Made by a program: the position numbers and the translations under genes. A DNA stretch of 34,334 bases from an uncultured Oscillospiraceae bacterium (GTDB lineage: Bacteria > Bacillota > Clostridia > Oscillospirales > Oscillospiraceae), in assembly GCA_944385095.1 (NCBI GenBank), contig CALWVS010000022.1, positions 1 through 34,334 of the forward strand. The letters are read 5' to 3'. A model generated the notes under the pieces. That model made no database searches. It worked only from the letters and a program-made list of their open reading frames with translations, and was not told the origin of the DNA. This document shows, one piece after another, positions 15,351-34,056 of the stretch; the stretch's first letter is position 1; each line of letters starts with the position of its first letter.

Positions 15351-16631
15351 ATGAAATTACTCATTCAGAACGGACGTGTGGTTGACCCAGTCAACGCCAC
15401 CGTCTCCATTTTAGACATTTTTGCTGAAAATGGTCGCATTGTACAGATGGAAAAAAACATTGAGGCAGAGGCCGATGTGGTATTGGATGCCACTGGCCTT
15501 ATTGTCTGTCCAGGACTTATAGATATGCACGTCCATCTCCGGGACCCCGGGCTCACCTACAAGGAGGATATTTTCACTGGTACTGCTGCCGCTGCCCGAG
15601 GCGGTGTGACTGCGGTGGCATGTATGGCAAACACAGACCCTGTGGTGGACAGCCCAGAACAAATTCAGTATATCAAAGAAAAAGCGGCACAGGGAAACGG
15701 GGTGCATGTATACCCCATTGGTGCTGTATCGGTGGGGATGCGTGGAGAGGAACCCACCAACGGGGACGCTCTGAAACAGGCTGGTGCTGTGGCTCTGTCT
15801 GATGATGGGTGTAATGTAGACAATGCCAACCTGATGCGGGATGTGATGATTCTTGCCAAACGGTTGCAGTTGCCCGTTTTGTGCCACTGTGAGGACACCT
15901 CTATGGTGGAAAACAGGGCAGTGAATGAGGGCAGTGTCTCCCGTCAGCTCTGGCTGGAGGGTCGCCCTGCCATTGCAGAAGAAATTATGGTCATGCGAGA
16001 TGCCATGCTGGCAGAGGAGACTGGTGCCCATGTCCACATCTGCCATATCTCCACTGCCAAATCGGTAGACATTGTCCGGCGTATGAAAAAACACGGGGTA
16101 CCCATCACCTGTGAAACCTGCCCTCAATATTTCACTTTGACAGAGGACGAAATTCTCACTCAAGGCTCTCTTGCCCGTGTGAATCCCCCTCTGCGTACTG
16201 CCAAAGACATCAAAGGCATTATTGCAGGGCTGAAAGATGGCACCATTGACGCCATTGCCACAGACCATGCACCTCACTCCCCAGAGGAAAAAGCCCGCTC
16301 CCTGACCCGTGCCCCCAGTGGTATGGTGGGACTGGAGACCTCCCTTGCCATCACTCTGACAGAATTGTACCACACAGGCAAAATGAAGCTGCCTGACCTC
16401 ATCCGTGCTATGGCCTACAACCCCGCCTCTATTTTACACCTCAGCTCAAAAGGGCGGCTCTCTCTGGGTGGCGATGCAGATATTACCATCTTTGACCCAG
16501 AACAGGAGTGGGTGATTAACCCAGAGGAATTTGCCTCCAAGTCACGCAACACCCCCTTTGCAGGTCGCAAAGTGAAAGGGCGTGTAAAGTATACCATCAT
16601 TGGCGGCAATGTGATTTATCAGGATCAATAA
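15351..16631 (+). CDS. pyrC: Dihydroorotase
   Basis: This is the third step of UMP synthesis, closing carbamoyl aspartate to dihydroorotate. The 426-residue class I amidohydrolase carries the zinc motif HVHLRDPG at 60-67. Further ligands are in LCHCED (His), HICHIS (His) and AIATDHAPH (catalytic Asp). Length matches the Bacillus/Aquifex type rather than the shorter E. coli enzyme. The ATG lies 12 bases after GGAGGG, a longer gap than usual. It is the first gene of pyrC-pyrF-orf-pyrK-pyrD. Confidence 0.96.
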   Translation: MKLLIQNGRVVDPVNATVSILDIFAENGRIVQMEKNIEAEADVVLDATGLIVCPGLIDMHVHLRDPGLTYKEDIFTGTAAAARGGVTAVACMANTDPVVDSPEQIQYIKEKAAQGNGVHVYPIGAVSVGMRGEEPTNGDALKQAGAVALSDDGCNVDNANLMRDVMILAKRLQLPVLCHCEDTSMVENRAVNEGSVSRQLWLEGRPAIAEEIMVMRDAMLAEETGAHVHICHISTAKSVDIVRRMKKHGVPITCETCPQYFTLTEDEILTQGSLARVNPPLRTAKDIKGIIAGLKDGTIDAIATDHAPHSPEEKARSLTRAPSGMVGLETSLAITLTELYHTGKMKLPDLIRAMAYNPASILHLSSKGRLSLGGDADITIFDPEQEWVINPEEFASKSRNTPFAGRKVKGRVKYTIIGGNVIYQDQ

Positions 16632-16644
16632 AGGAGAATGAACC

Positions 16645-17571
16645 ATGTCTTTTGATAGTTTACAGGAAAAAATCATTGCAAAGAAAAATCCCACTGTGGC
16701 TGGTCTGGATGCCCGTATTGAATATGTACCTGAACACATCCGCAAGGCATGCTTTGCAGAGTATGGAGTAGGGCTGAAAGGGGCATGTGAAGCCATTTAT
16801 CAGTTCAATGTGGGACTGATGGATGCTCTGTGTGACATTGTGCCTGCGGTAAAGCCACAGGCAGCCTACTATGAAAATCTGGGCTGGCAGGGCATGGAAA
16901 TGCTGGAACGCACCATTGCCTATGCAAAAAGCAAGGGGCTGTTTGTCATTGCTGACATTAAGCGCGGTGACATCGGTTCCACTGCCACCGCCTATGCAGA
17001 GGGCTGGCTCAGCGGTGCAGACATTGAAGGTCAGACCTTCAAATCCTTTGACGCTGACTGTGTGACCCTCAATGGCTATATGGGTTCTGACTCTATTCTT
17101 CCCTTCCTGAATGCTGCCAAGGGTGAGGACAAGTGCGCCTTTGTGTTAGTCAAAACCTCCAACCCCGGTTCTGGTGAACTTCAGGACATCAAAACAGCTG
17201 ATGGACAGACCATCTATCAGGTGATGGGGCAGCTCAATGAGCAGATTGCTGCTGGCACAGAGGGCAAGTACGGTTTCACCATGGCAGGTGCTGTCACAGG
17301 AGCCACCTATCCTGAGCAGATTCAGAATTTGCGTACCCTTTTGCCCCGTACCTTCTTCTTAGTGCCTGGCTACGGTGCACAGGGCGGCACGGCTGAGGAT
17401 GTAAAGTATGCATTCAACGAGAAGGGGCATGGTGCCATTGTCAACTCCTCACGTGGAATTATGTGCGCTTGGAAAAAGACTGGCAACAACGGTCTGGACT
17501 TTGGTGAGGCTGCCCGAAATGCTGCCATTGCTATGCGGGATGATATTTCCCGTTTTGTGACCATTCAGTAA
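16645..17571 (+). CDS. pyrF: Orotidine-5'-phosphate decarboxylase (type 2)
   Basis: This enzyme makes UMP from OMP, the last step of the pathway. The 308 residues match the longer type 2 family. The catalytic charge network is DIKRGDIGST (104-113), with K106 as the catalytic lysine. The substrate region LDARIEYVP and the phosphate-binding C-terminal VPGYGAQGG and IVNSSRGI loops are present. An AAAGGAG site lies just before the ATG, 13 bp after pyrC. Confidence 0.96.
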   Translation: MSFDSLQEKIIAKKNPTVAGLDARIEYVPEHIRKACFAEYGVGLKGACEAIYQFNVGLMDALCDIVPAVKPQAAYYENLGWQGMEMLERTIAYAKSKGLFVIADIKRGDIGSTATAYAEGWLSGADIEGQTFKSFDADCVTLNGYMGSDSILPFLNAAKGEDKCAFVLVKTSNPGSGELQDIKTADGQTIYQVMGQLNEQIAAGTEGKYGFTMAGAVTGATYPEQIQNLRTLLPRTFFLVPGYGAQGGTAEDVKYAFNEKGHGAIVNSSRGIMCAWKKTGNNGLDFGEAARNAAIAMRDDISRFVTIQ

Positions 17572-17603
17572 CAGTTCCTGATGAGCCGAAAGGAGGGGTT
17601 TCG

Positions 17604-18071
17604 ATGGAAAAGCGGTGTACCTTCTGCGGAAAAGAATTGGGTTTTTTAGAGCGTGATGTGTTAGGCTGTGGCGGCACAGACCAGCCCTGCTGTAAAAGCT
17701 GCCACAAAAAAATGGTTCCCCTCTCTATGGTGGAGCGGTGCCAACGTGCCCTTCAAACTGGTCGGGCTGTGGACTGGCGCACCATGCAGGGATTTCTGGA
17801 ACAGCACCAGCAGGGAGAGGAAACGGCAAAACGGCAGGCAGAACAATGCAAACAACAGCGTCGCACAGGAAAAAACTGTCTGCGCTGTGGTGCTCCTATG
17901 CTCTCTGTGGGAAAACAGACCTTTAAGCTGGGAGAGGAAACCTTCTTTTTCAGCGACTGGAACCGCCTCTTTTCTGGCTCTCTCGACTTGGAAATGGAAG
18001 TGTGTGAACAGTGCCGGAAGGTGGAGTTTTTCTTGCCGGAAGGTGTCTCTTTGAACTTGAATGAGAGGTGA
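17604..18071 (+). CDS. Hypothetical zinc-ribbon protein inside the pyr operon
   Basis: I recognise no family for this 155-residue soluble protein. It carries two sets of paired cysteines: CTFC (C5, C8) with CCKSC (29-33), and CLRC (C92, C95) with CEQC (C134, C137). Each set could hold one zinc. Between them is a glutamine- and lysine-rich helical stretch (about 66-90). An AAGGAGGGG site precedes the ATG. It lies 32 bp after pyrF and its end overlaps the ribosome-binding region of pyrK, so it is co-expressed with the pathway. A structural or regulatory role is possible; nothing in the sequence shows an enzyme. Confidence 0.8.
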   Translation: MEKRCTFCGKELGFLERDVLGCGGTDQPCCKSCHKKMVPLSMVERCQRALQTGRAVDWRTMQGFLEQHQQGEETAKRQAEQCKQQRRTGKNCLRCGAPMLSVGKQTFKLGEETFFFSDWNRLFSGSLDLEMEVCEQCRKVEFFLPEGVSLNLNER

Positions 18072-18079
18072 TTTTCTAC

Positions 18080-18859
18080 ATGAAGGTAGAACACAAGTGT
18101 AAGATATTAGAGAAAACCATGCTCAATGACAGTGCTGTCTCTATGGTGCTGGAAGTAGGGGATATGGTGAAAACTTCCTTTAAGCATCCCGGGCAGTTTG
18201 TCCATGTAAAGTGTGGGGATGGACTGCTGCTGCGCCGTCCCATCTCTGTTTGCAGTTGTGCTGTGGGTTCTCCATCTGATACCCTGCGCATTGTTTTTGA
18301 GGAGCGAGGTGAGGGTACAAAATGGCTCTCCAACCGTCCCGCTGGGCACCCTCTGGACGTAATGGGACTGCTGGGCAATGGCTTCCCAATGAAAAAAGAG
18401 GGGCGTTACCTGCTGGTAGGTGGCGGCATTGGAGTCCCTCCCATGTTGGGCTGTGCCCAGTTCCCTGACCAAAAAGCCACTGCCATTCTGGGGTTCCGCT
18501 CCAAGGAAAAAGTCATGCTGCTGGATGAATTTGAGGCAGTGTGTGAAAAGGTCCTGCCTGCCACCGATGACGGCTCCTTTGGCTACCACGGTTTTGTGGA
18601 TGCCCTTGTCAAACAGGAGCTGGAACAGGATACCCACTATGATGCTGTCCTTGCCTGTGGTCCAAAACCTATGCTGCGCAATGTGGCAAAGGTGGCTGAG
18701 GCATTTGGCGTTCCCTGCCTTGTCTCTATGGAGGAACGGATGGGCTGTGGCGTTGGGGCTTGTCTGGTGTGTGCCTGTGATATGAACGACGGCAGCCGTA
18801 AGCATGTATGCAAAGATGGTCCTGTCTTTGATGCCAAGGAGGTGGATTGGAATGCCTAA
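18080..18859 (+). CDS. pyrK: Dihydroorotate dehydrogenase B, electron-transfer subunit
   Basis: PyrK carries FAD and a [2Fe-2S] cluster and links PyrD to NAD. The 259 residues have the FAD motif RRPISV (52-57), the nucleotide motif GGGIGVPPM (about 114-122) and CGPKPM near 193. The cluster cysteines are spaced C223-x4-C228-x2-C231-x12-C244, the canonical PyrK pattern. The ATG at 18080 is eight bases after GAGGTGA; the in-frame GTG at 18068 lies within that site and is rejected. It overlaps pyrD by eight bases. Confidence 0.95.
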   Translation: MKVEHKCKILEKTMLNDSAVSMVLEVGDMVKTSFKHPGQFVHVKCGDGLLLRRPISVCSCAVGSPSDTLRIVFEERGEGTKWLSNRPAGHPLDVMGLLGNGFPMKKEGRYLLVGGGIGVPPMLGCAQFPDQKATAILGFRSKEKVMLLDEFEAVCEKVLPATDDGSFGYHGFVDALVKQELEQDTHYDAVLACGPKPMLRNVAKVAEAFGVPCLVSMEERMGCGVGACLVCACDMNDGSRKHVCKDGPVFDAKEVDWNA

Positions 18860-19772
18860 TGTGGATTTACAAGTCAACCTTGCCGGTATGACCATGAAAA
18901 ACCCTGTGGTGGTTGCCTCTGGCACCTTTGGCTTTGGTCGTGAGTATGGGCAGTTCTTTGATTTAAGTGAACTGGGTGGCATTTGTGCCAAAGGTCTGAC
19001 CCTTCACCGCCGGGAAGGCAACCCTGCCCCCCGTATTGCAGAAACTCCCATGGGCATTCTCAACTCTGTGGGTCTGCAAAACCCCGGAGTGGACGCCTTT
19101 ATTGCCTCTGAATTGCCATTTTTACGTCAGTATGATGTGAAAGTCATTGCCAATATCTCCGGTAATACACCAGAGGAATATGGTATCATGTGTGAAAAGC
19201 TGGCAGATGCCGGGGTAGATATGATTGAGGTGAATATCTCCTGCCCCAATGTAAAAGCCGGCGGGCTTGCCTACGGCACCCGTCCAGAACTGGCTGCGGA
19301 AGTCACAAAAGTGGCAAAAGCCCACGCTGGTTCTGTGCCTGTGATGGTGAAACTCTCCCCCAATGTCACAGACATCACCGAAATTGCCAAAGCAGTGGCA
19401 GATGCCGGGGCAGATGCCCTGTCCCTCATCAATACCCTGCGTGGCATGCGGATTGATGTCATGAGCAATCGCCCCGTTTTGAAAATGAACACAGGTGGTC
19501 TGTCCGGTCCTGCGGTGCTGCCAGTGGCAGTGCGTATGGTGTGGGAAGTCGCCAATGCCGTAAAACTGCCCATTTTGGGCATGGGCGGCGTTTCCAAAGG
19601 GGAGGATGCAGTCCAACTCATGCTGGCTGGTGCCTCTGCGGTGGCAGTGGGCACTGCCCTGTTTGCTGACCCCTATACTCCCCTGACTGTCCGTGATGGT
19701 CTTGCAGAGATTGCCCATCGGAAAGGGCTGTCCGCTGTCTCTCAGCTCACAGGCGGGGTCAATCCCTGGTAA
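18852..19772 (+). CDS. pyrD: Dihydroorotate dehydrogenase B, catalytic subunit
   Basis: This FMN enzyme oxidises dihydroorotate to orotate, working as a PyrD2-PyrK2 complex. The 306 residues are of family 1B: PVVVASGTFG near 18-27, GLTLHRREGNPAPRI near 48-61, the catalytic cysteine C131 in NISCPN, and C-terminal FMN-phosphate motifs (LGMGGVSKGED, AVAVGTALF). The ATG at 18852 follows AAGGAGG and overlaps the end of pyrK. A reading frame extending upstream to 18804 is inside pyrK and is not the start. Confidence 0.96.
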   Translation: MPNVDLQVNLAGMTMKNPVVVASGTFGFGREYGQFFDLSELGGICAKGLTLHRREGNPAPRIAETPMGILNSVGLQNPGVDAFIASELPFLRQYDVKVIANISGNTPEEYGIMCEKLADAGVDMIEVNISCPNVKAGGLAYGTRPELAAEVTKVAKAHAGSVPVMVKLSPNVTDITEIAKAVADAGADALSLINTLRGMRIDVMSNRPVLKMNTGGLSGPAVLPVAVRMVWEVANAVKLPILGMGGVSKGEDAVQLMLAGASAVAVGTALFADPYTPLTVRDGLAEIAHRKGLSAVSQLTGGVNPW

Positions 19773-24696: not shown

Positions 24697-25316
24697 CTTT
24701 CTTTTTCTTGAAAGAAAAAGAAAGCAAAAAGAACTTCAAGGGTTGCCACCCACAACACTTTCTATGGAACAACTCTCTGCTCTCCAAGGGCATTTGGGTG
24801 GAAAAGTCGCTGAGACTGACTACTCCAAAGGAGTTACCTGAGAGACCTTACAAAATTTTCTTTGCCCACTTTCTTTTTTAAAAGAAAGTGGGTGTAGCCA
24901 TCCCTTCCTTTTTCTTGAAAGAAAAAGGAAGCAAAAAGAACTTCAAGGGTTGCCACCCACAACACTTTCTATGGAACAACTCTCTGCTCTCCAAGGGCAT
25001 TGGGTGGAAAAGTCGCTGAGACTGACAGCAAAAGAAATGTTACTTCAGAGACCTCACAAAATGCTCTTACGGAGTGGAGCAGTTGTTCCTTTCCAAAGGA
25101 GTTGCCTGAGAGACCTCACAAAATGCTCTTACAGAGCGGAGCAGTTGTTCCTTTCCAAAGAAGCTGCCTGAGAGACCTCACAAAATGCTCTTACAGAGTG
25201 GAGCAGTTGTTCCTTTCCAAAGAAGCTGCCTGAGAGACCTCACAAAATGCTCTTACAGAGTGGAGCAGTTGTTCCTTTCCAAAGGAGTTGCCTGAGAGAC
25301 CTTACGAAAATTTCTT
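24697..25316. repeat. Composite repeat block (two elements, gene-free)
   Basis: This 620-bp stretch has no supportable gene. It holds two head-to-tail elements. Each begins with a perfect 13-bp AT-rich inverted repeat (24697-24724 and 24904-24931), followed by GCAAAAAGAACTT and a ~95-bp module A (24725-24820 and 24932-25026) that differs between copies by one inserted base. Element 1 continues with a short piece of a 62-bp unit and closes with another 13-bp inverted repeat (24865-24892). Element 2 continues into 62-bp tandem units (25041 onward). No terminal transposase or target duplication is visible. Confidence 0.85.
25041..25312. repeat. 62-bp tandem repeat (four full copies plus a partial)
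   Basis: Copies start at 25041, 25103, 25165, 25227 and 25289, an exact 62-bp period with only a few substitutions between copies. The last copy decays after about 24 bases. Each unit holds a CTCT/AGAG mini-hairpin and a GCTC/GAGC pair. There are no unique spacers, so it is not a CRISPR array, and 62 is not a multiple of three, so it is not a coding repeat. Confidence 0.92.
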
Positions 25317-25343
25317 GCATTTGTCTGCAAGCTATGGCATACT
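25315..25343 (+). promoter_or_regulatory. Probable promoter for the Rrf2 regulator gene
   Basis: TTGCAT (25315-25320) and CATACT (25338-25343) with a 17-bp spacer lie right at the end of the repeat block. Only moderate match to consensus. Confidence 0.45.
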
Positions 25344-25374
25344 AAGCAGGAAGAAGGGAGTGATTGACACCATT

Positions 25375-25785
25375 ATGATGATTTCCACCAGAGGGCGGTA
25401 TGCCCTGCGTGTGATGCTGGACCTTGCCCAGCAGGAACCAGACCAGTATATCCCCCTGAAAGACATTGCCACCCGTCAGGGAATTTCCGAAAAATATCTG
25501 GAAAGTATCATCCGTGCCCTGTCTCAAAATGGCGACCTGCGAGGCATTCGAGGAAAAGGCGGCGGTTATCAGCTGACCCGTTCCCCAGAGGAATACAGCA
25601 TCGGTCATATTTTACGCCTGACGGAAGGCAGCCTTGCCCCTGTCTCCTGTCTCGAAGATGGTATGAGCGGTTGTGAACGCTCGGATTGTTGCCTCACATT
25701 GCCTGTTTGGAAAAAACTTGACACCATGATTCAGGACTATCTGGACAGTGTTTCTCTTGCAGATCTGCTCAATCAGCAGGATTGA
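25375..25785 (+). CDS. Rrf2/IscR-type transcriptional regulator
   Basis: This 136-residue DNA-binding protein starts MMISTRGRYALRVMLDLA, the standard Rrf2 opening. The winged helix includes IPLKDIATRQGISEKYLESIIRAL (in pieces, about 25-48) and GGYQLTRSPEEYSIG. The effector part has four cysteines in CLEDGMSGCERSDCC followed by LTLPVW, so a [2Fe-2S] cluster as in IscR is likely; the regulator CymR of Bacillus lacks these. The start is the first of two ATGs (25375 or 25378) with only a distant GGGAG site. It is followed by metY from a separate promoter, which makes sulfur or cluster metabolism the likely target; that is inference. Confidence 0.88.
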   Translation: MMISTRGRYALRVMLDLAQQEPDQYIPLKDIATRQGISEKYLESIIRALSQNGDLRGIRGKGGGYQLTRSPEEYSIGHILRLTEGSLAPVSCLEDGMSGCERSDCCLTLPVWKKLDTMIQDYLDSVSLADLLNQQD

Positions 25786-25802
25786 GCAGATCTTTTCTTT
25801 TT
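25761..25802 (+). terminator. Intrinsic terminator after the Rrf2 gene
   Basis: A perfect 13-bp stem (25761-25773 with 25781-25793) with a seven-base loop is followed by TTTCTTTTTCC. It covers the stop codon. Confidence 0.9.
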
Positions 25803-25814
25803 CCTATTTTCCTA

Positions 25815-25844
25815 TTGACAAGGTTGGTTTATCTGTGGTATAGT
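25815..25844 (+). promoter_or_regulatory. Promoter for metY
   Basis: TTGACA (25815-25820) and TATAGT (25839-25844) with an 18-bp spacer. A GTGG/CCAC inverted repeat overlaps the -10 region (25835-25852), a possible but unproven operator. No S-box or T-box RNA fits in the 55-nt leader. Confidence 0.75.
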
Positions 25845-25899
25845 TCCACCATATTTTATGACGCTAAATTGCTATCACAAAAAAGAAAGGGTGTTTCCC

Positions 25900-27186
25900 A
25901 TGTCTCGTCCAGCCTATCACTTTGAAACATTAGCCCTCCATGTTGGTCAGGAAACTCCAGACCCTGCCACAGATGCCCGCTCCGTTCCTATTTATCAGAC
26001 TGCCTCCTATGTGTTTCCCAGTGCAGAAAATGCAGAGGATCGCTTCTCCCTCCGTGCTGGTGGAAACATCTATGGCAGACTGACCAACCCCACACAGGAG
26101 GTACTGGAAAAGCGGATTGCCGCCCTGGAAGGTGGCTCTGCTGCTCTGGCTGTTTCCTCTGGTGCTACCGCCATTACCTACACCATACAGGCGTTGGCAC
26201 AGGCTGGCGACCATATCGTAGCACAGAAAACCATCTATGGTGGTACTTACAATTTACTGGCACACACCCTGCCTCAATTCGGTATCTCCACCAGCTTTGT
26301 AGATGCCCATAACCTAGAAGCAGTGGAAGCTGCCATTGCTCCAAACACCAAAGCCATCTATCTGGAGACACTGGGCAACCCAAATTGTGATATTCCTGAC
26401 ATAGATGCCATTGCAGCCATTGCCCACCGCCATCAGATTCCTCTGGTGATTGACAATACCTTTGGCACACCCTATCTCATCAGACCCATCGAGCATGGTG
26501 CAGACATTGTGGTACACTCTGCCACCAAGTTTATTGGCGGTCATGGTACGTCTCTGGGTGGTATTATTGTAGAATCTGGGCAGTTTGATTGGAAAGCCAC
26601 TAGAAAATTCCCACAGATTGCAGACCCAAACCCCAGCTATCATGGGGTAGCCTTTGCAGAGGCAGCAGGTCCTGCTGCCTTTGTCACCTATATTCGTGCG
26701 GTTTTACTGCGTGATATGGGGGCTGCCATCTCCCCGTTCAACGCTTTTTTGCTCCTACAGGGTACAGAAACTCTGGCACTGCGTATGGACCGCCATATAG
26801 AGAACACCAAACAGGTGGTGGCATTTTTACAGCAACATCCCAAGGTACAGAAGGTCAATCACCCCTCACTGCCTGACCACCCAAACCATGCACTCTATCA
26901 GCGGTATTTCCCAAAGGGCGGCGGCTCTATTTTTACCTTTGATGTCGTTGGCGGTAAACAGGAAGCGCACACCTTCATTGACCATCTGAATATCTTCTCC
27001 CTCCTTGCCAACGTGGCAGATGTGAAAAGTCTGGTCATCCATCCAGCCACTACAACCCACGCTCAACTCACCCCAGAGGAGCTGGAGGAACAGAATATTC
27101 ACCCTGGCACCATCCGCCTTTCTATCGGCACAGAACACATTCAAGACATTCTGGCAGATTTGGAACAGGCTCTTGCAGTCATTTAA
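25900..27186 (+). CDS. metY: O-acetylhomoserine sulfhydrylase (aminocarboxypropyltransferase)
   Basis: This PLP enzyme makes homocysteine, or cysteine from O-acetylserine, using sulfide. At 428 residues it has the long form typical of MetY rather than the ~380-residue cystathionine enzymes. Visible are FETLALHVGQETPDPATDARSVPIYQ (in pieces, 8-32), the YGRLTNPT loop (58-65), SSGATAI, LETLGNP, VIDNTFGTP and the Schiff-base lysine K210 in HSATKFIGGHG. The start at 25900 follows GAAAGGG by about eight bases; an upstream in-frame ATG at 25858 has no site. It is a single-gene unit, followed by the polyamine operon promoter. Confidence 0.95.
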   Translation: MSRPAYHFETLALHVGQETPDPATDARSVPIYQTASYVFPSAENAEDRFSLRAGGNIYGRLTNPTQEVLEKRIAALEGGSAALAVSSGATAITYTIQALAQAGDHIVAQKTIYGGTYNLLAHTLPQFGISTSFVDAHNLEAVEAAIAPNTKAIYLETLGNPNCDIPDIDAIAAIAHRHQIPLVIDNTFGTPYLIRPIEHGADIVVHSATKFIGGHGTSLGGIIVESGQFDWKATRKFPQIADPNPSYHGVAFAEAAGPAAFVTYIRAVLLRDMGAAISPFNAFLLLQGTETLALRMDRHIENTKQVVAFLQQHPKVQKVNHPSLPDHPNHALYQRYFPKGGGSIFTFDVVGGKQEAHTFIDHLNIFSLLANVADVKSLVIHPATTTHAQLTPEELEEQNIHPGTIRLSIGTEHIQDILADLEQALAVI

Positions 27187-27208
27187 CCTCTATTTCACAA
27201 AAAATGTG

Positions 27209-27237
27209 TTGACAAACCACTTTTCATGACTTATACT
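27209..27237 (+). promoter_or_regulatory. Promoter for the polyamine operon
   Basis: TTGACA (27209-27214) and TATACT (27232-27237) with an exact 17-bp spacer, 415 bp before the speD start codon. Confidence 0.85.
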
Positions 27238-27242
27238 TCATT

Positions 27243-27583
27243 CGTCATGTGATATGAGTTTTCATACAGAGTATCTCATGCAAATATTTCTTCTGACCAC
27301 CCAGTCGATTGGGTTAAGGCCATACGGACAGCCGGGTCAACTGCCGATAGGCAATCTTTAGTATTGCCATTATTGATTGAGTTAAAAGCTCAATTTTATA
27401 AGTTGGTTACTCACAACCGCTGCGTGAACCGCATCAACTTGTAAAACGGTCAATAAAGAGTAGTAAAAGTAAGTATTTGCTATATAGACTCTGTAAGAAC
27501 GCAATATCCCCCTCCCTCTGTGCCCCCTTTTCTATTTGGGTGTCGTCAGTGGGTGGACATGGCGTCATTACATTTTGAACCAT
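27243..27583 (+). ncRNA. Highly folded leader RNA of the polyamine operon (candidate riboswitch)
   Basis: The leader is dense with stems. ATGAG/CTCAT with inner ATAC/GTAT spans 27254-27279. ACCCAG/TTGGGT lies at 27299-27314, GGCAAT/ATTGCC at 27350-27368 and ATTGAG/CTCAAT at 27376-27394. AAGTTG/CAACTT (27400-27440) encloses a GGTT/AACC hairpin whose TCAC loop (27411-27414) can pair with GTGA (27424-27427), a possible pseudoknot. CATTAC at 27566-27571 can pair with GTAATG at 27591-27596 inside the downstream terminator. I do not recognise SAM-I, T-box, lysine, cobalamin, THF or guanidine signatures. Ligand and function are not known. Confidence 0.6.
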
Positions 27584-27586
27584 TTG

Positions 27587-27627
27587 ACAGGTAATGTGTG
27601 TCACTCACACATTGCCTGTTTTATTTT
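27587..27627 (+). terminator. Leader terminator (attenuator) before speD
   Basis: A 14-bp stem (27587-27600 with 27606-27619, one G-U pair) with loop TCACT is followed by TTTTATTTT. It stands between the promoter and the first gene, so readthrough must be controlled or partial. Bases 27591-27596 can pair instead with 27566-27571. Confidence 0.88.
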
Positions 27628-27651
27628 GCCGAAAAAAGGGAGATATTGGGT

Positions 27652-28413
27652 ATGGGGGATAAATTGAGACTATATGGCTTTAACAATCTAACCAAGGCAT
27701 TGAGTTTTAACATCTATGATGTGTGTTACGCAAAAACAGCCCGTGAACAAAAAGACTACATTGCCTATATTGATGAACAGTATAACTCCGAGCGTCTGAC
27801 CACCATTCTGACCAACCTCACCGACATGATTGGTGCTAGAGTATTAAACATTGCCAAACAGGACTACGAACCACAGGGAGCATCTGTTACCATTCTGATT
27901 GCAGAAAGTTCCATGATTCCAGTGGGACAGACTCAGCTTGCCCATCTGGACAAAAGCCATGTTACTGTCCATACCTATCCAGAATACCATCCCGAAACCA
28001 GTCTTGCCACTTTTCGTGTGGATATTGATGTGGCTACCTGTGGAGAAATTACTCCACTGTCCACACTGGACTATCTCATTGGCTCCTTTGATTCTGATAT
28101 TATTACCATGGATTATCGTGTACGGGGCTTTACTCGGGATATGAGCGGTAAAAAACTATTTTTGGACCACAAAGTAACCTCCATTCAGGATTACATTGAC
28201 CCCAAAACCCTGCTGCGCTACGATGCTGTAGATGTGAATGTATATGGTTCCAACCTGTTCCATACCAGAATGATGGTCAAAGACATTGACTTACAAAATT
28301 ATCTCTTTAAAACGGATGTCTATGAACTGCCGCCCCAGACACGACTTGAAATTATGAACAACCTGCGAAAAGAAATGATTGAAATTTTCAGTGGACGCAA
28401 TATCTACGACTGA
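27652..28413 (+). CDS. speD: S-adenosylmethionine decarboxylase proenzyme
   Basis: This enzyme makes decarboxylated AdoMet, the aminopropyl donor for SpeE. At 253 residues it is of the E. coli-like long prokaryotic class. Self-cleavage should occur between K101 and S102 in [13 protein letters not shown], leaving the pyruvoyl group on S102; the downstream CGEI and the [16 protein letters not shown] region (in the C-terminal half) fit the family. The ATG at 27652 has GGGAG nine bases upstream; a longer frame beginning at 27598 runs inside the terminator hairpin and is rejected. It is the first gene of the operon. C. difficile has a related speA-speD-speE-speB set. Confidence 0.95.
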
Positions 28414-28435
28414 ACAATGGAAGGAGGGAACAGTC

Positions 28436-29887
28436 ATGGCACAAAATCCCCAGACAAAAGCCCCCATTTATGAGGCGTTACAGCGTTTTCAATCCATGAG
28501 AGTGGTACCATTTGATGTTCCAGGACACAAGCGAGGCAGAGGCAATCCAGAGCTTGCCCAGCTTTTGGGCAGCCAGTGTGTCAGTATGGATGTAAATTCC
28601 ATGAAACCACTGGACAACCTGTGTCACCCCATCTCTGTCATTCGGGAGGCAGAAGAGCTGGCAGCGCAGGCATTTGGTGCAGCCCACGCCTTTTTGATGG
28701 TAGGTGGAACCACCAGTGCAGTACAGAGTATGGTACTTTCCACCGTAAAACGTGGGGACAAAATTATCCTGCCCCGCAATGTCCACCGCAGTGTGATGGG
28801 TGCGCTGGTGCTGTGTGGTGCCATTCCTGTGTATGTAAATCCAGCCTGTGATGACCGGTTGGGAATTCCGCTTGGTATGGGCGTGGCTGATGTGGAAGCT
28901 GCCATTCAAAAGCATCCCGATGCCAAAGCCATTTTAGTCAACAACCCCACCTACTACGGCATTTGTTCTGATTTACGCTCCATTGTAAAACTTGCCCATG
29001 CACATGGTATGTTGTGCCTTGCAGATGAAGCCCACGGAACCCACTTCTATTTTAGTTCCCAACTGCCTGTCTCTGCGATGGAAGCCGGTGCAGACATGGC
29101 AGCCGTTTCCATGCACAAATCCGGCGGCAGTCTCACCCAGAGCAGTCTTTTGCTCATTGGAAACAGTGTCTCCCCTGGTCATGTGCGTCAGATTATCAAC
29201 CTGACCCAGACCACCAGCGGTTCTTATCTGTTACTCAGCAGTCTGGACATTGCCCGCCGGAACCTTGCCCTGCGCGGCAAAGAGGAATTTGAACGGGTCA
29301 TTCAGCTTGCCCAATATGCCCGTGAGGAAATCAACCAGATTGGGGGCTACTATGCCTTTGGTCGGGAGTTAATCAATGGGGACAGCATCTATGATTTTGA
29401 TTTAACCAAGTTGTCTGTCAACACACTGGAGATTGGACTTGCCGGCATTGAGGTCTATGACCTGCTGCGAGATGAATATGACATTCAAATTGAATTTGGA
29501 GATTTGGGCAACATTCTTGCCTATCTCTCCATTGGAGACCGCCCCAGAGAGGTGGAACGACTGGTGGGTGCATTGAGTGAGGTACGCCGTCGGTTTGGCA
29601 GCTCTGGCACCAATTTGATGAAACAGGAGTACATTGACCCACAGGTGGCTGTCTCCCCACAGGAGGCATTTTATGCCCCAAAGAAAAGTTTGCCCATTGG
29701 GGAAACCGATGGGATGATTTGCAGTGAATTTGTCATGTGTTATCCCCCAGGCATTCCCATTTTAGCACCAGGAGAACGGATTACCCGTGAGATTCTCAAC
29801 TATATCCAATATGCCAAGGAAAAGGGCTGTTCTATGACCGGTCCAGAGGATGCGGATATTTTATATTTAAACGTGTTGGACACATAA
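28436..29887 (+). CDS. speA: Arginine (or lysine/ornithine) decarboxylase, aminotransferase fold
   Basis: This is a PLP decarboxylase of the Orn/Lys/Arg family without the N-terminal wing domain, 483 residues, close in length to B. subtilis SpeA. Key parts are PFDVPGHKRG (25-34), the GGTTSA cofactor loop (90-95), NNPTYYG (169-175), DEAHGTHF (197-204) and the Schiff-base lysine K228 in SMHKSGGSLTQSS. The C-terminal domain (about 370-483) ends with the PPGIPILAPGERI motif. The ATG follows AAGGAGGG, 22 bp after speD. The presence of the ureohydrolase gene speB downstream favours arginine as substrate, giving agmatine. Confidence 0.9.
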   Translation: MAQNPQTKAPIYEALQRFQSMRVVPFDVPGHKRGRGNPELAQLLGSQCVSMDVNSMKPLDNLCHPISVIREAEELAAQAFGAAHAFLMVGGTTSAVQSMVLSTVKRGDKIILPRNVHRSVMGALVLCGAIPVYVNPACDDRLGIPLGMGVADVEAAIQKHPDAKAILVNNPTYYGICSDLRSIVKLAHAHGMLCLADEAHGTHFYFSSQLPVSAMEAGADMAAVSMHKSGGSLTQSSLLLIGNSVSPGHVRQIINLTQTTSGSYLLLSSLDIARRNLALRGKEEFERVIQLAQYAREEINQIGGYYAFGRELINGDSIYDFDLTKLSVNTLEIGLAGIEVYDLLRDEYDIQIEFGDLGNILAYLSIGDRPREVERLVGALSEVRRRFGSSGTNLMKQEYIDPQVAVSPQEAFYAPKKSLPIGETDGMICSEFVMCYPPGIPILAPGERITREILNYIQYAKEKGCSMTGPEDADILYLNVLDT

Positions 29888-29900
29888 GGGAGGTTACAGT

Positions 29901-30752
29901 GTGGACTATTGGTTTAGTGAGGTACAAACCCCAAATGTAAAATTTTCCATTAAAGTGGACCACCAGCTCTACAGTGGCAAAAGTGAGTTTCAACGCATTG
30001 ATGTGTTTGACTCCCCGGAGTTTGGCAGATTTCTGGCTCTGGATGGCTATATGATGCTGACCGAAAAGGATGAGTTCATCTACCATGAAATGATTGTCCA
30101 TCCTGCTATGGCAGTGCATCCAAATGTAAAGGATGTACTGGTGATTGGGGCAGGGGATGGGGGTGTCATCCGTGAGCTTGCCCAGTATCCAGAAATTGAA
30201 CACATTGATATGGTAGAAATCGACCCTCTTGTGGTTGAGGTGTGCAAAAAATATCTGCCCAAAACCGCCTGCCGCTTTGATGAACCCCGGCTGACCATCC
30301 ACTATGAGGACGGTTTAAAATTTGTTCGTACCGTCCATGAGCAGTACGATTTGATTATTGTGGATTCTACGGACCCCTTTGGTCCTGGTGAGGGGCTGTT
30401 TACCCGTGAATTTTATGGGAACTGTTTCAAGGCACTGCGCCCAGATGGCATTATGATTAACCAGCATGAAAGCCCCTTCTATCCACAGGATGCACAGGCT
30501 TGCCAGCGTGCCCATAAACGGATTGTGGAGTCTTTCCCCATCGCCAAGGTCTATCAAGCCCATATCCCAACCTACCCATCTGGTCACTGGCTCTTTGGCT
30601 TTGCCAGCAAACAATATCACCCTCTGCGTGATTTGGACGAAGCCAGATGGAATTTACGGGGAATTCACAGTAAATACTACACCACCACCCTGCACAAAGG
30701 TGCATTTTATATCCCTGCCTATGTAGAGGAACTTTTGAAGGAAGTGGAATAA
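29901..30752 (+). CDS. speE: Spermidine synthase (aminopropyltransferase)
   Basis: SpeE moves the aminopropyl group of decarboxylated AdoMet to an amine acceptor. The 283 residues have the gate-loop motif YHEM (61-64), the dcAdoMet motif GAGDGG (83-88), the acidic VEIDPLVV end of the second strand, YEDG (135-138) and the catalytic DSTDPFGPG (155-163). The start is GTG, seven bases after GGGAGG and 13 bp after speA. The acceptor may be putrescine, but agmatine or spermidine are real alternatives given the operon content; substrate choice cannot be read from these motifs. Confidence 0.93.
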   Translation: MDYWFSEVQTPNVKFSIKVDHQLYSGKSEFQRIDVFDSPEFGRFLALDGYMMLTEKDEFIYHEMIVHPAMAVHPNVKDVLVIGAGDGGVIRELAQYPEIEHIDMVEIDPLVVEVCKKYLPKTACRFDEPRLTIHYEDGLKFVRTVHEQYDLIIVDSTDPFGPGEGLFTREFYGNCFKALRPDGIMINQHESPFYPQDAQACQRAHKRIVESFPIAKVYQAHIPTYPSGHWLFGFASKQYHPLRDLDEARWNLRGIHSKYYTTTLHKGAFYIPAYVEELLKEVE

Positions 30753-30782
30753 TTTCTTTCATGCAGAGGAGTTTTGCGAGAA

Positions 30783-31640
30783 ATGTTAAACAAAAATATT
30801 GAGACCTTTATGGCATGTGACAAGGAGCCAAATTACGCCTCCACCATTTTATTTGGTGCCCCCTTTGACTCCACAACTTCTTACCGCCCAGGCACCCGCT
30901 TTGGCAGTGCTGCCATCCGCAAAGAATCCTATGGCATTGAAACTTACAGCCCCTATCAGGACCAGGATTTGGAGGATGCCCCTGTTCTGGATATTGGAGA
31001 TTTGGAACTGTGCTTTGGCAGTGCAGAAAAAGCACTGGATGCCATTGAAACACAGACCCGTGAAATTTTGCAGCTTTCCAAACGCCCCTTTATGATTGGT
31101 GGTGAGCATCTGGTGACTTTGGGTGCAGTGCGTGCTGTAGCGGAACAGTACCCTGACTTGCATATCATCCATTTTGATGCCCACGCTGATTTACGGGATG
31201 ACTATCTGGGTGCCCCCCTGTCCCACGCCTGTGTCATCCGTCGGTGCTGGGAACTGGTGGGAGATGGGCGTATCTTCCAGTTTGGCATTCGCTCCGGTGA
31301 AAAAGCAGAATTTCAGTGGGGACACTCCCATGTGAAAACCCAGCTTTTTTCTTTTGAAGGGCTGGAACAGGTGGTGGAATCCCTGTCTGGAAAGCCAGTC
31401 TATTTTACGGTAGATTTGGACGTACTGGACCCATCTGTATTCCCCGGCACTGGCACACCGGAACCCGGCGGCGTCAGCTTTGAAGATTTGCGCAAAGCGG
31501 TCACTCTGGTCTGTTCCAAAACCAGAGTGGTGGGCTGTGATGTGAACGAGTTAAGCCCCCACTATGACCAGAGTGGTGTCTCTACCATTACCGCCTGTAA
31601 AATCATCCGTGAAATGCTGTTGGCATTCCATCAAATTTAA
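30783..31640 (+). CDS. speB: Agmatinase-family ureohydrolase
   Basis: This is a binuclear manganese ureohydrolase of the arginase/agmatinase family, 285 residues. The metal motifs are GGEH (106-109), DAHADLRD (132-139) and DLDVLDPS (211-218), followed by PGTGTPEPGG and the C-terminal DVNELSP. It would release urea from agmatine to give putrescine, or from N1-aminopropylagmatine to give spermidine. The ATG at 30783 is 11 bases after GAGGAG; the in-frame TTG at 30774 is only two bases from it. It follows speE by 30 bp. Confidence 0.93.
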   Translation: MLNKNIETFMACDKEPNYASTILFGAPFDSTTSYRPGTRFGSAAIRKESYGIETYSPYQDQDLEDAPVLDIGDLELCFGSAEKALDAIETQTREILQLSKRPFMIGGEHLVTLGAVRAVAEQYPDLHIIHFDAHADLRDDYLGAPLSHACVIRRCWELVGDGRIFQFGIRSGEKAEFQWGHSHVKTQLFSFEGLEQVVESLSGKPVYFTVDLDVLDPSVFPGTGTPEPGGVSFEDLRKAVTLVCSKTRVVGCDVNELSPHYDQSGVSTITACKIIREMLLAFHQI

Positions 31641-31669: not shown

Positions 31670-32929
31670 ATGAGCAAGGTACTGATTATCGGCTGCGGTG
31701 GTGTGGCAGGTGTTGCCATCCACAAGTGCTGCCAGAACAGTGAAGTATTTGAGGAAATTTGCATTGCAAGCCGCACCAAGTCCAAGTGCGATGCCCTGAA
31801 AGCCAAGCTGGAGGGTACAACCAAAACCAAAATTACCACAGAACAGGTGGACGCAGACAAGGTGGAGGAAGTGATTGCCTTAATCAAAAAGGTACAGCCT
31901 GACCTTGTGATGAATATTGCACTGCCCTATCAGGATTTGACCATTATGGATGCCTGCCTCGCCTGTGGGGTCAACTATCTGGACACTGCCAACTATGAGC
32001 CTGAAAATCTGGATGACCCAGAGTGGAAGGCAGCCTATGAAAAACGCTGCAAAGAGGAAGGGTTTTCTGCCTACTTTGACTACTCCTACCAGTGGGCATA
32101 CAAAGAGAAGTTTGAAAAAGCTGGGCTGACTGCCCTGCTTGGCACTGGCTTTGACCCCGGTGTGACACAGGCATACTGTGCCTATGCCCAGAAGCATCTC
32201 TTTGATGAAATTGATACCATTGACATTCTGGACTGTAACGGCGGCGACCACGGCTACCCCTTCGCCACCAACTTCAATCCTGAAATCAACCTGCGTGAAG
32301 TATCTGCCCCCGGTTCCTACTGGGAGAATGGTCACTGGGTAGAAATTCCTGCTATGTCCATTAAGCGTGAATACAACTTTGACCAGGTGGGACAGAAAGA
32401 TATGTATCTGCTCCATCATGAGGAAATTGAGTCCCTTGCCAAGAATATTCCCAATGTAAAGCGGATTCGCTTTTTCATGACTTTCGGACAGAGCTACCTG
32501 ACCCATATGAAGTGTCTGGAAAATGTGGGGATGCTGTCCACTACCCCCATTCAGTTTGAAGGTCATGAAATTGTTCCCATTCAGTTCCTGAAAGCCCTGC
32601 TGCCTGACCCTGCCACTTTAGGTCCACGCACCAAGGGAAAAACCAACATTGGCTGCATTTTCACCGGCAGAAAGGACGGCAAGGAGAAAACCGCCTATAT
32701 TTACAATGTCTGTGACCATGAGGAGTGCTACCGTGAGGTAGGCAGTCAAGCCATCAGCTACACCACCGGTGTCCCTGCCATGATTGGTGCCATGATGCTG
32801 CTCACCGGCAAGTGGAACAAACCTGGTGTCTTTACGGTAGAGGAGTTTGACCCCGATCCCTATATGGATGCCCTGAATCAGTGGGGACTGCCCTGGCAGA
32901 TTAACGAACATCCTGAGTTGGTGGACTAA
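31670..32929 (+). CDS. Carboxynorspermidine/carboxyspermidine dehydrogenase
   Basis: This NADPH-type reductase of the saccharopine dehydrogenase family has 419 residues. It couples aspartate semialdehyde with a diamine by reductive condensation (putrescine gives carboxyspermidine; agmatine gives carboxyaminopropylagmatine in relatives). The N-terminal Rossmann motif is GCGGVAG (8-14). NIALPYQDLTIMDACLACGVNYLDTANYE (in pieces, 82-110) and LLGTGFDPGVT (157-166) are strongly conserved in the family. The ATG follows AAGGAGG, and the end overlaps the decarboxylase gene (TAATG). The diamine used cannot be told from sequence. Confidence 0.9.
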   Translation: MSKVLIIGCGGVAGVAIHKCCQNSEVFEEICIASRTKSKCDALKAKLEGTTKTKITTEQVDADKVEEVIALIKKVQPDLVMNIALPYQDLTIMDACLACGVNYLDTANYEPENLDDPEWKAAYEKRCKEEGFSAYFDYSYQWAYKEKFEKAGLTALLGTGFDPGVTQAYCAYAQKHLFDEIDTIDILDCNGGDHGYPFATNFNPEINLREVSAPGSYWENGHWVEIPAMSIKREYNFDQVGQKDMYLLHHEEIESLAKNIPNVKRIRFFMTFGQSYLTHMKCLENVGMLSTTPIQFEGHEIVPIQFLKALLPDPATLGPRTKGKTNIGCIFTGRKDGKEKTAYIYNVCDHEECYREVGSQAISYTTGVPAMIGAMMLLTGKWNKPGVFTVEEFDPDPYMDALNQWGLPWQINEHPELVD

Positions 32930-34056
32930 TGAAAAAGACAAAGCTGAGAACACCCTATTTTTTGGTGGATGAAGCCCTGCTGCGTAAAAATCTGACCATT
33001 CTCAAAGAGGTACAGCAAGAGACAGGGTGTAAAATTCTGCTGGCACAGAAGGCTTTTTCCATGTTCTACACTTATCCCATTCTGTCTGAGTATCTGGCAG
33101 GCAGTACCGCCAGCGGTCTCTACGAGGCACGGTTAGGCAAGGAACAGTTTGGGGGCGAAACCCATGTATTCTCCCCTGCCTACCGTGAAGATGAGTTTGA
33201 AGAACTGCTTCACTATGCCGACCATTTTGTATTCAACAGCCCCAGACAGGTGGAGAAATTTGCAAAACGTGCCAAGGAAGCTGGGAAACAAGTGGGGCTT
33301 CGCATCAACCCAGAGTGTTCTACACAGGAAGGGCATGCCATCTATGACCCCTGTTCTCCTGGCAGCCGTCTGGGGACAACCCTTGCAAATTTTGACCCTG
33401 CACAGCTTCCTTTATTGGATGGTCTGCACTTCCACACCCTCTGCGAACAGGATGCAGACGATTTGGAAACCACTGTTGCAGCCTTTGAGGAAAAGTTTGG
33501 GCAATATCTGTCTGGTTTGAAGTGGCTGAATTTGGGTGGTGGGCACCACATCACCCGTGAGGGCTATCAGCTTGACAAGCTCAAGCAGATCATTCGCCAT
33601 TTACAGGACACCTATCAGGTGGAAGTGTATCTGGAACCTGGTGAGGCGGTTGTACTCAAAGCCGGATTTTTAGTGACCAGTGTACTGGAAACGCTACACA
33701 ATGGAATGGACATTGCCATTCTGGACAGCTCCGCCGCCTGCCACATGCCCGATGTACTGGAAATGCCCTACCGTCCACCCCTTGCCCACTCCGGTGAGCC
33801 ACAGGAAAAGCCCTACACCTATCGACTGGGTGGTCCCACCTGTCTGGCTGGTGACATCATTGGGGATTACTCCTTTGACCAGCCATTACAAGAGGGGGAT
33901 GAGCTGGTTTTTGAGGACATGGCACTTTACACCATGGTAAAAACCAACACATTCAATGGAATGCCCCTTCCTCAAATTGCATGGAGGAATTTACAGGGTG
34001 AGATTTCTGTCATTCGCCAGTTCGGCTATGAGGATTTCAAATCCCGCCTCTCCTAA
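32929..34056 (+). CDS. nspC: Carboxynorspermidine decarboxylase
   Basis: This is a PLP enzyme of the alanine-racemase fold (375 residues) that decarboxylates carboxynorspermidine, carboxyspermidine or related products. The Schiff-base lysine is K41 in LLAQKAFSMF, which is the family form. RINPECS binds the phosphate side with the later LNLGGGHHI and EPGEAVV, and the second-subunit Cys/Asp region is GPTCLAGDIIGDY. The start overlaps the dehydrogenase stop codon. Only the repeat element follows, starting at the base after the stop; I see no classical terminator. Confidence 0.93.
   Translation: MKKTKLRTPYFLVDEALLRKNLTILKEVQQETGCKILLAQKAFSMFYTYPILSEYLAGSTASGLYEARLGKEQFGGETHVFSPAYREDEFEELLHYADHFVFNSPRQVEKFAKRAKEAGKQVGLRINPECSTQEGHAIYDPCSPGSRLGTTLANFDPAQLPLLDGLHFHTLCEQDADDLETTVAAFEEKFGQYLSGLKWLNLGGGHHITREGYQLDKLKQIIRHLQDTYQVEVYLEPGEAVVLKAGFLVTSVLETLHNGMDIAILDSSAACHMPDVLEMPYRPPLAHSGEPQEKPYTYRLGGPTCLAGDIIGDYSFDQPLQEGDELVFEDMALYTMVKTNTFNGMPLPQIAWRNLQGEISVIRQFGYEDFKSRLS

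Follow-up and report, generated by a model that had tools for sequence, protein, structure and literature searches.

A structured leader RNA of polyamine genes in Bacillota is a strong riboswitch candidate

The polyamine operon of an uncultured Oscillospiraceae bacterium is preceded by a structured leader RNA that, judged from its homologues, is a real, widespread and under-described element and a strong riboswitch candidate. Its fold, its intrinsic terminator, an alternative pairing and its gene context are supported by the comparison of homologous loci. Beyond this, we infer that a ligand exists, with a triamine such as spermidine in this role, and that its binding turns the genes off. The leader is very probably a riboswitch, and we favor, with reasonable though not high confidence, a cis-acting terminating OFF switch for the polyamine supply, in which an end-product polyamine, most likely spermidine, would stabilize the stems P6 and P8 of the RNA.

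The operon and its leader

The window, i.e., the whole stretch of 34,334 nt that was analyzed, contains six genes that form a polyamine operon, all on the forward strand. The gene of adenosylmethionine decarboxylase, speD (27652–28413; TIGR03331, 397 bits), is followed by a speA-like gene (28439–29887) for a PLP decarboxylase of the lysine/ornithine/arginine type, whose family scores shown are all below the cut-offs. The next genes are speE for spermidine synthase (29901–30752; TIGR00417 / NF002010), an agmatinase gene (30774–31640; TIGR01230), a carboxynorspermidine-synthase-like (CANSDH) gene (31670–32929; NF043000, 424 bits, the cut-off of 800 not being reached), and nspC for carboxynorspermidine decarboxylase (32929–34056; TIGR01047). 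By the look of the translations, the region upstream of the leader (25288–27186) encodes an Rrf2-like regulator and an enzyme that resembles the O-acetylhomoserine sulfhydrylase/cystathionine gamma-synthase type. A gene run at 15351–19772 resembles pyrimidine biosynthesis (pyrC, pyrF, pyrK, and pyrD) by the same criterion, and no Rfam element was found before it at gathering thresholds.

The first-pass annotation of this DNA described a near-consensus promoter and a leader of about 340 nt ahead of a terminator, all before the first gene, and this description was confirmed. The sigma-70-type promoter (27209–27237, + strand) has the form TTGACA-17-TATACT with 11 of the 12 consensus bases, and transcription is expected to start at about 27244. 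Similarly placed promoters with at least 10 of 12 consensus bases occur in 98 of the 141 homologous loci that have enough upstream DNA, where mononucleotide shuffles predict 6.4, and the median distance from the end of the −10 element to the conserved core is 72 nt. A 5′ hairpin ahead of the core (P0, 27244–27281, + strand) is predicted by folding and is weakly supported: the 60 nt upstream of the core in 72 homologues have a mean z score of −0.99, with 44% below −1. The intrinsic terminator (27586–27627, + strand) consists of a hairpin at 27586–27620, with 15 pairs by scan and a loop of 5, followed by a T tract, and the ATG of speD lies at 27652. Eight terminator-like sites were found in 26500–28500 against 1.7 in shuffles, and apart from this hairpin they contain no more than 5 or 6 pairs each. 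A scripted search detected a terminator in 107 of the 132 homologous leaders tested and missed it in 25, and this count is a lower bound because some of the misses, such as L143, have a hairpin with a T tract that is recognizable by eye.

Conserved fold, domains, and distribution

The 5′ part of the leader belongs to an existing Rfam family. RF02440 (SpF59_sRNA, "Streptococcus sRNA SpF59 (ldcC RNA)") matches 27294–27347 with 72.5 bits (cut-off, 37.2) over all 54 model positions with no broken pairs, and it is the sole Rfam RNA in the whole window at gathering thresholds. This 5′ domain (+ strand) comprises P1 (27294–27298/27335–27339), P2 (27299–27303/27310–27314), and the conserved AAGGCCATACGGACAGCCGGGTC. 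The initial statement that the leader matches no riboswitch class consequently does not stand for the 54-nt 5′ part, which is RF02440, and stands for the full-length form, which is absent from Rfam. In homologous loci, strongly conserved sequence runs for another ~150 nt past RF02440, and the 3′ end motif was present in all 25 distinct loci that were found by RF02440 alone. The Rfam entry covers the 5′ 54 nt only and is typed as a Streptococcus "Gene; sRNA", whereas in the window the same element is a domain of a cis leader of ~215 nt; the 3′ domain, terminator, and antiterminator of this leader are all missing from the entry. On this comparative evidence, RF02440 is a fragment, namely, the 5′ piece of a structured RNA of ~215 nt, and the cis position, the terminator, and the co-varying antiterminator argue for a leader rather than a free sRNA. 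The label "ldcC RNA" in Rfam suggests that someone has linked the RNA to ldcC genes.

An exact scan for the 5′ core gave at least 118 loci in named genomes. The 118 matches listed comprise 115 from Bacillota, one from Synergistota, one from a Spirochaetota MAG, and one unassigned; by class, they are 92 Clostridia, 20 Bacilli, 2 Negativicutes, 1 Synergistia, and 3 unassigned. Faecalibacterium, Blautia, Paenibacillus, and Bacillus are among the named genomes with copies. The 3′ end motif is present in 96 of these 118 and in 121 of 143 loci overall. Among the 22 listed loci that lack it, 5 have less than 200 nt of contig left and 17 have a changed 3′ part, as judged by pattern.

Alignment A1 contains 94 rows, obtained from 107 rows after removal of near-duplicates by excluding 13, most of which have long inserts or deletions. 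The rows were picked for both end motifs; therefore, the identity of the motif columns is partly by construction. Three loci (L049, L079, and L117) have long inserts, with segments of 285–368 nt against a median of 213 nt, and the insert of L079 lies inside the P7/P8 region. The whole conserved RNA corresponds to 27283–27498 (+ strand), and its model, R1, has 214 positions and 52 proposed pairs. R1 scores the window at 198.6 bits (E 2.3e-52), the window being one of its 94 training rows, and it matches the genome of the window once, at the leader only.

The first-pass annotation counted at least five stems and held that a lack of covariation in homologues would speak against its reading. The comparison extended this count to nine stems, P1–P9, of which P2 and P3 covary strongly. 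In A1, 91.7% of the cells of the 52-pair structure are paired, compared with 86.3% (s.d. 0.2) in shuffles and 33–41% when the partners are slid by 1–3 columns. Both sides change in 30 pairs, against 16.9 (s.d. 1.8) in shuffles, and none of 500 shuffles reached A1 on any of five measures. A model-fitted alignment gave 39 such pairs and 94.3% paired cells; this alignment leans towards the structure. The covariation is strongest in P2, P3, and the outer pair of P1, and all six pairs of the P3 hairpin (27350–27368, + strand) change on both sides. P4 (27370–27376/27450–27456, + strand) closes a multibranch region with P5 (27378–27391), P6 (27398–27404/27436–27442), P7 (27405–27408/27415–27418), and P8 (27421–27424/27430–27433). 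In this region, 96–98% of the cells are paired, and the high conservation leaves little covariation. P4, P6, and P9 vary little, so that their support comes less from covariation than from their position. In P8, which is variable, the two arms of the same homologue pair with each other (−7.56 against a permuted −5.57, s.d. 0.19; 0/2000 permutations, n = 88). The 3′ strand shared by P8 and P6, within 27398–27442 (+ strand), is the switching strand discussed below. RNAalifold on A1 replaced P1 by a pairing of GGCC (27318–27321) with GGTC (27335–27338). P1 was preferred over this pairing, as 43 of the 94 rows have changes on both sides of its outer pair; GGCC may pair in an alternative to the fold that contains P1.

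R1 matches 84 of 297 genomes sampled from the order of the window and 25 of 398 genomes of the phylum. The RF02440 model found 74 of the same 297 order genomes, 71 of them above the cut-off, and it gave matches in 9 of 40 genomes of relatives and in 18 of the 398 phylum genomes. It also matches Lactococcus lactis, which was included as a control genome. All 18 RF02440-positive phylum genomes lie within the 25 found by R1, over positions 1–214. Eleven of the 25 are training rows of R1, all of them among these 18, and the remaining 7 of the 18 are independent. The seven other phylum loci, none of which was used to train R1, lie before speD or speA and retain the 3′ part, with the RF02440 5′ domain absent or unrecognizable; no RF02440 match was obtained in any of the seven.

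This 3′ domain (27437–27494, + strand; model R2, 57 positions) contains the 3′ strand of P6, GGTCAATAA, P9 (27458–27461/27488–27491), and an inner helix (27468–27471/27478–27481) around an AGTAAA/ATATAG internal loop. It is absent from Rfam. R2, which represents the 3′ domain alone, matches the same 25 of 398 phylum genomes as R1, a result that is partly by construction because 10 of the 25 are training rows of R2, including six of the seven 3′-only loci. By these counts, the RNA is more constant in its 3′ domain, with 25 phylum genomes against the 18 that also have RF02440, and this domain would represent the functional core. Five speD or speA leaders (L189, L192, L193, L194, and L195) carry the 3′ domain without a recognizable Rfam 5′ domain and may represent a minimal form of the RNA; in some of them, e.g., L193, L194, and L195, a terminator can be seen by eye. 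Four other leaders (L057, L064, L076, and L090, one of which is from an uncultured Spirochaetes MAG) have the 5′ domain but a degenerate 3′ domain, which lies close to the start of speD, and these are possibly a translational form. With both 3′-only leaders and leaders with a degenerate 3′ domain, it is not certain that there is a single uniform aptamer. One exact-pattern scan of viral contigs gave no copies, and a plasmid scan gave one match, in a 2.7-Mb Paenibacillus record.

Copies of the RNA lie before genes of one pathway. The model search that had been proposed at the outset, for copies before speD and speA, returned them in Clostridia and in the wider phylum sample. The first recognized downstream gene of the 25 phylum copies, all found by the RNA alone, was speD in 10, speA in 8, and CANSDH in 7; for the 30 best of the 84 order loci, it was speD in 16, speA in 12, CANSDH in 1, and potA in 1. 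The genes were recognized by BLAST against the six genes of the window and one potA, and they start within ~250 nt of the RNA end. Among the 143 loci, the RNA was followed by speA in 40, by speD in 38, and by CANSDH in 23; in 12 the contig ended before any gene, and 30 had genes that matched none of those in the window. The first frame was examined in 18 of these 30. Eight are spermidine/putrescine ABC ATPases by NCBIfam, with the cut-off of TIGR01187 passed by 8/8 and that of NF043075 by 5/8, and Pfam identified seven further ABC ATPases with a TOBE_2 domain and one ABC ATPase fragment. Another (L085) has no family match. In an Oscillospiraceae MAG (L081), an RF02440 copy is followed first by a gene of the P-II family (1557–1952, − strand), which is not a polyamine gene. 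The constant association with genes of one pathway holds in 25 of 25 phylum loci and in the 30 best of 84 order loci, and L081 is the one exception among the 143 other loci, which were partly examined. Both synthesis genes (speD, speA, and CANSDH/nspC) and importer genes (potA) are found downstream. This context narrows the ligand list given at the outset (spermidine, putrescine, agmatine, arginine, or AdoMet): joint control of synthesis and import favors the end product that they share over substrates such as arginine or AdoMet.

Alternative pairing with the terminator arm

Two tertiary or alternative pairings that were initially proposed are present in the letters of the window and are not shared by the family. 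A loop-loop pairing of TCAC (27411–27414) with GTGA (27424–27427) occurs in 0 of the 57 homologues tested, and the pairing of the P7 loop with the P8 loop (1.61 kcal/mol) did not differ from permuted combinations (1.57 kcal/mol; 1353 of 2000 permutations equal or better). A local antiterminator, CATTAC (27566–27571) with GTAATG (27591–27596), is not conserved in 73 leaders; the own pairings averaged −5.50, the permuted ones −5.86, and 1894 of 2000 permutations were equal or better.

A longer-range antiterminator, formed by the 3′ strand of P8/P6 and the left arm of the terminator, is supported by the same kind of comparison. This strand (GC..A..ACUUGUG) is complementary to the left arm of the terminator. 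In the window, the 5′ half of the antiterminator (27430–27442, + strand) consists of CGCAT (27430–27434), which pairs with 27594–27598, and ACTTGT (27437–27442), which pairs with 27587–27592, with −10.1 kcal/mol; the 3′ half is the left arm itself (27587–27598). In 73 dereplicated leaders, the mean energy of the strand with its own terminator arm was −13.42 kcal/mol, compared with −10.51 (s.d. 0.27) for permuted arms, and 0 of 2000 permutations reached the own-arm mean. The variable 8 nt alone gave −6.82 against −5.10 (s.d. 0.21; 0/2000). Control permutations with the right arm (158/2000) and with shuffled arms (449/2000) gave no significant signal in the same leaders.

Stricter tests were made because kinship among sequences inflates permutation tests. 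A swap of arms between nearest relatives was not significant, either for the full strand (48 better, 40 worse, p 0.46) or for the 8 nt (43:41, p 0.91). A matched-pairs test, devised after the swap test had proved non-significant, used each locus once and required at least 3 of the 8 nt to differ; coupling was seen in 37 pairs and not in 8 (p 1.5e-5), and restricting the test to the 8 nt gave 33:11 (p 0.0013). With thresholds of at least 2, 3, and 4 differing nucleotides, the ratios were 34:9, 37:8, and 39:5 for the 17-nt strand and 31:12, 33:11, and 33:9 for the 8 nt. Coupling nearly vanishes in pairs of loci with a similarity of at least 0.65 (−0.09 to −0.26 kcal/mol); therefore, the co-variation signal comes from the more distant comparisons.

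The antiterminator of the window is weaker than the family mean (−10.1 versus about −13 kcal/mol). When the transcript is folded up to 27600, P6 is preferred over the antiterminator by 14 kcal/mol (−105.4 versus −91.0), and equilibrium folding of the full leader strongly prefers the terminated state (−124.7 versus −97.9 kcal/mol). Folding energies thus favor P6 and termination; therefore, switching would have to be kinetic, occurring during transcription, or the energy model is off.

Proposed mechanism and known systems

The layout of a transcription-attenuating riboswitch, which had been recognized early, is borne out by a cis-acting, terminator-bearing, structured polyamine leader with a covarying fold. 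Features of this kind of RNA that are found here are a conserved, covarying fold in a 5′ leader and an expression platform in which a strand of the aptamer forms an antiterminator incompatible with the terminator. The non-significant swap test and the folding energies of the window count against the latter feature. In the proposed mechanism, the folded P6/P8 and the antiterminator would be mutually exclusive, and the antiterminator would exclude the terminator. At high levels of an end-product polyamine, most likely spermidine, this ligand would bind the fold and hold P6/P8, the left arm of the terminator would remain free, and transcription would stop. When the polyamine is scarce, the P8/P6 strand would pair with the terminator arm, and the speD-speA-speE-agmatinase-CANSDH-nspC operon would be transcribed.

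The same cis switch may respond to another trigger, such as putrescine, agmatine, cadaverine, decarboxylated AdoMet/MTA, AdoMet, or a signal such as Mg2+. The sequence cannot reveal the ligand, and, by family, SpeD uses AdoMet, and the products of speA and agmatinase are diamines. However, an end-product triamine is the simplest common factor of the copies before potA and those before CANSDH-nspC, and an OFF switch driven by a substrate would be illogical; we consider another trigger unlikely, though it is the most credible of the alternatives. Binding of a protein or a tRNA that sets termination seems less probable still. Proteins, too, can impose long conserved stretches like those of this large RNA, but no constant gene of an RNA-binding regulator accompanies it on the downstream side, where the first recognized genes encode enzymes or an importer, and neither T-box nor any other leader family was matched at E values up to 10.

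In the E. coli speF leader, attenuation depends on a leader peptide and ribosome stalling. A 35-codon open frame that starts at ATG 27254 crosses the 5′ core in the window and would be compatible with such a mechanism. However, when the three frames are counted separately in 121 loci, an upstream start with a frame open over the core occurs in 37, 60, and 58 of them, so that no open frame is conserved in one fixed reading frame; the P1–P2 length modulo 3 is distributed as 43/38/35 in 116 measurable loci; and conservation tracks the stems. A leader peptide attenuator was rejected on these grounds and has the lowest probability of all the explanations, close to negligible. Only slightly more credible, and still very improbable, is a terminated leader that acts mainly in trans as a small RNA. 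The RNA is catalogued as F59/srn235 in S. pneumoniae in the accessible texts of three papers (PMC3395615, PMC12323649, PMC4387999). Against a main role in trans, each of the 25 copies of the phylum sample has polyamine genes immediately downstream, and a trans-acting RNA would not require the co-variation seen between its terminator arm and the aptamer strand. Roles in cis and in trans could coexist. The pneumococcal F59 upstream of SP0916 is given as 82 nt in the available text of one report (PMC3395615), and srn235/F59 upstream of SP0916 as 327 nt in that of another (PMC12323649); a terminated leader should have about this second length.

The terminating OFF switch proposed here resembles a known system in its action. 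According to the accessible text of PMC10853860, a SAM-I-variant spermidine riboswitch in the leaders of ldcC, speE, and speB undergoes spermidine-triggered intrinsic termination; like the window leader as proposed, it is a terminating OFF switch before polyamine genes. By Rfam, the two RNAs are unrelated: no SAM-family model, and hence no SAM-I aptamer architecture, matched 551 nt at E values up to 10. The consensus of the SAM-I variant is based on 13 representatives in the same text (PMC10853860), compared with matches of the window RNA in 84 of 297 order genomes. The odc1 motif, in which a pseudoknot joins the 5′ end and a loop (PMC8632094, accessible text), and the speF motif, an alphaproteobacterial element (PMC11477304, accessible text), also precede polyamine genes; the leader has no Rfam match to any speF family.

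In the open-access texts covered, we found no account of the function of this RNA, and the main texts of PMC11109978, PMC6429828, and PMC6296669 contain none of the terms looked for. Prior unpublished or closed-access knowledge of it is possible. We give about even chances to the broader reading that the leader belongs to an undescribed and widespread class of polyamine riboswitches in Bacillota, with a two-domain, triamine-sensing aptamer of ~215 nt that turns off both synthesis and import and a 3′ domain that is the ligand-binding core. As part of this reading, the RNA would be far more common than the SAM-I-derived spermidine riboswitch. Polyamine riboswitches have long been sought without definitive proof, and more classes are expected, according to the accessible text of PMC10853860. 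If the present RNA senses a triamine, it would be a main polyamine feedback device of Gram-positive bacteria. The case also shows that what is curated as a 54-nt "sRNA" may turn out to be the end piece of a large cis-regulator.
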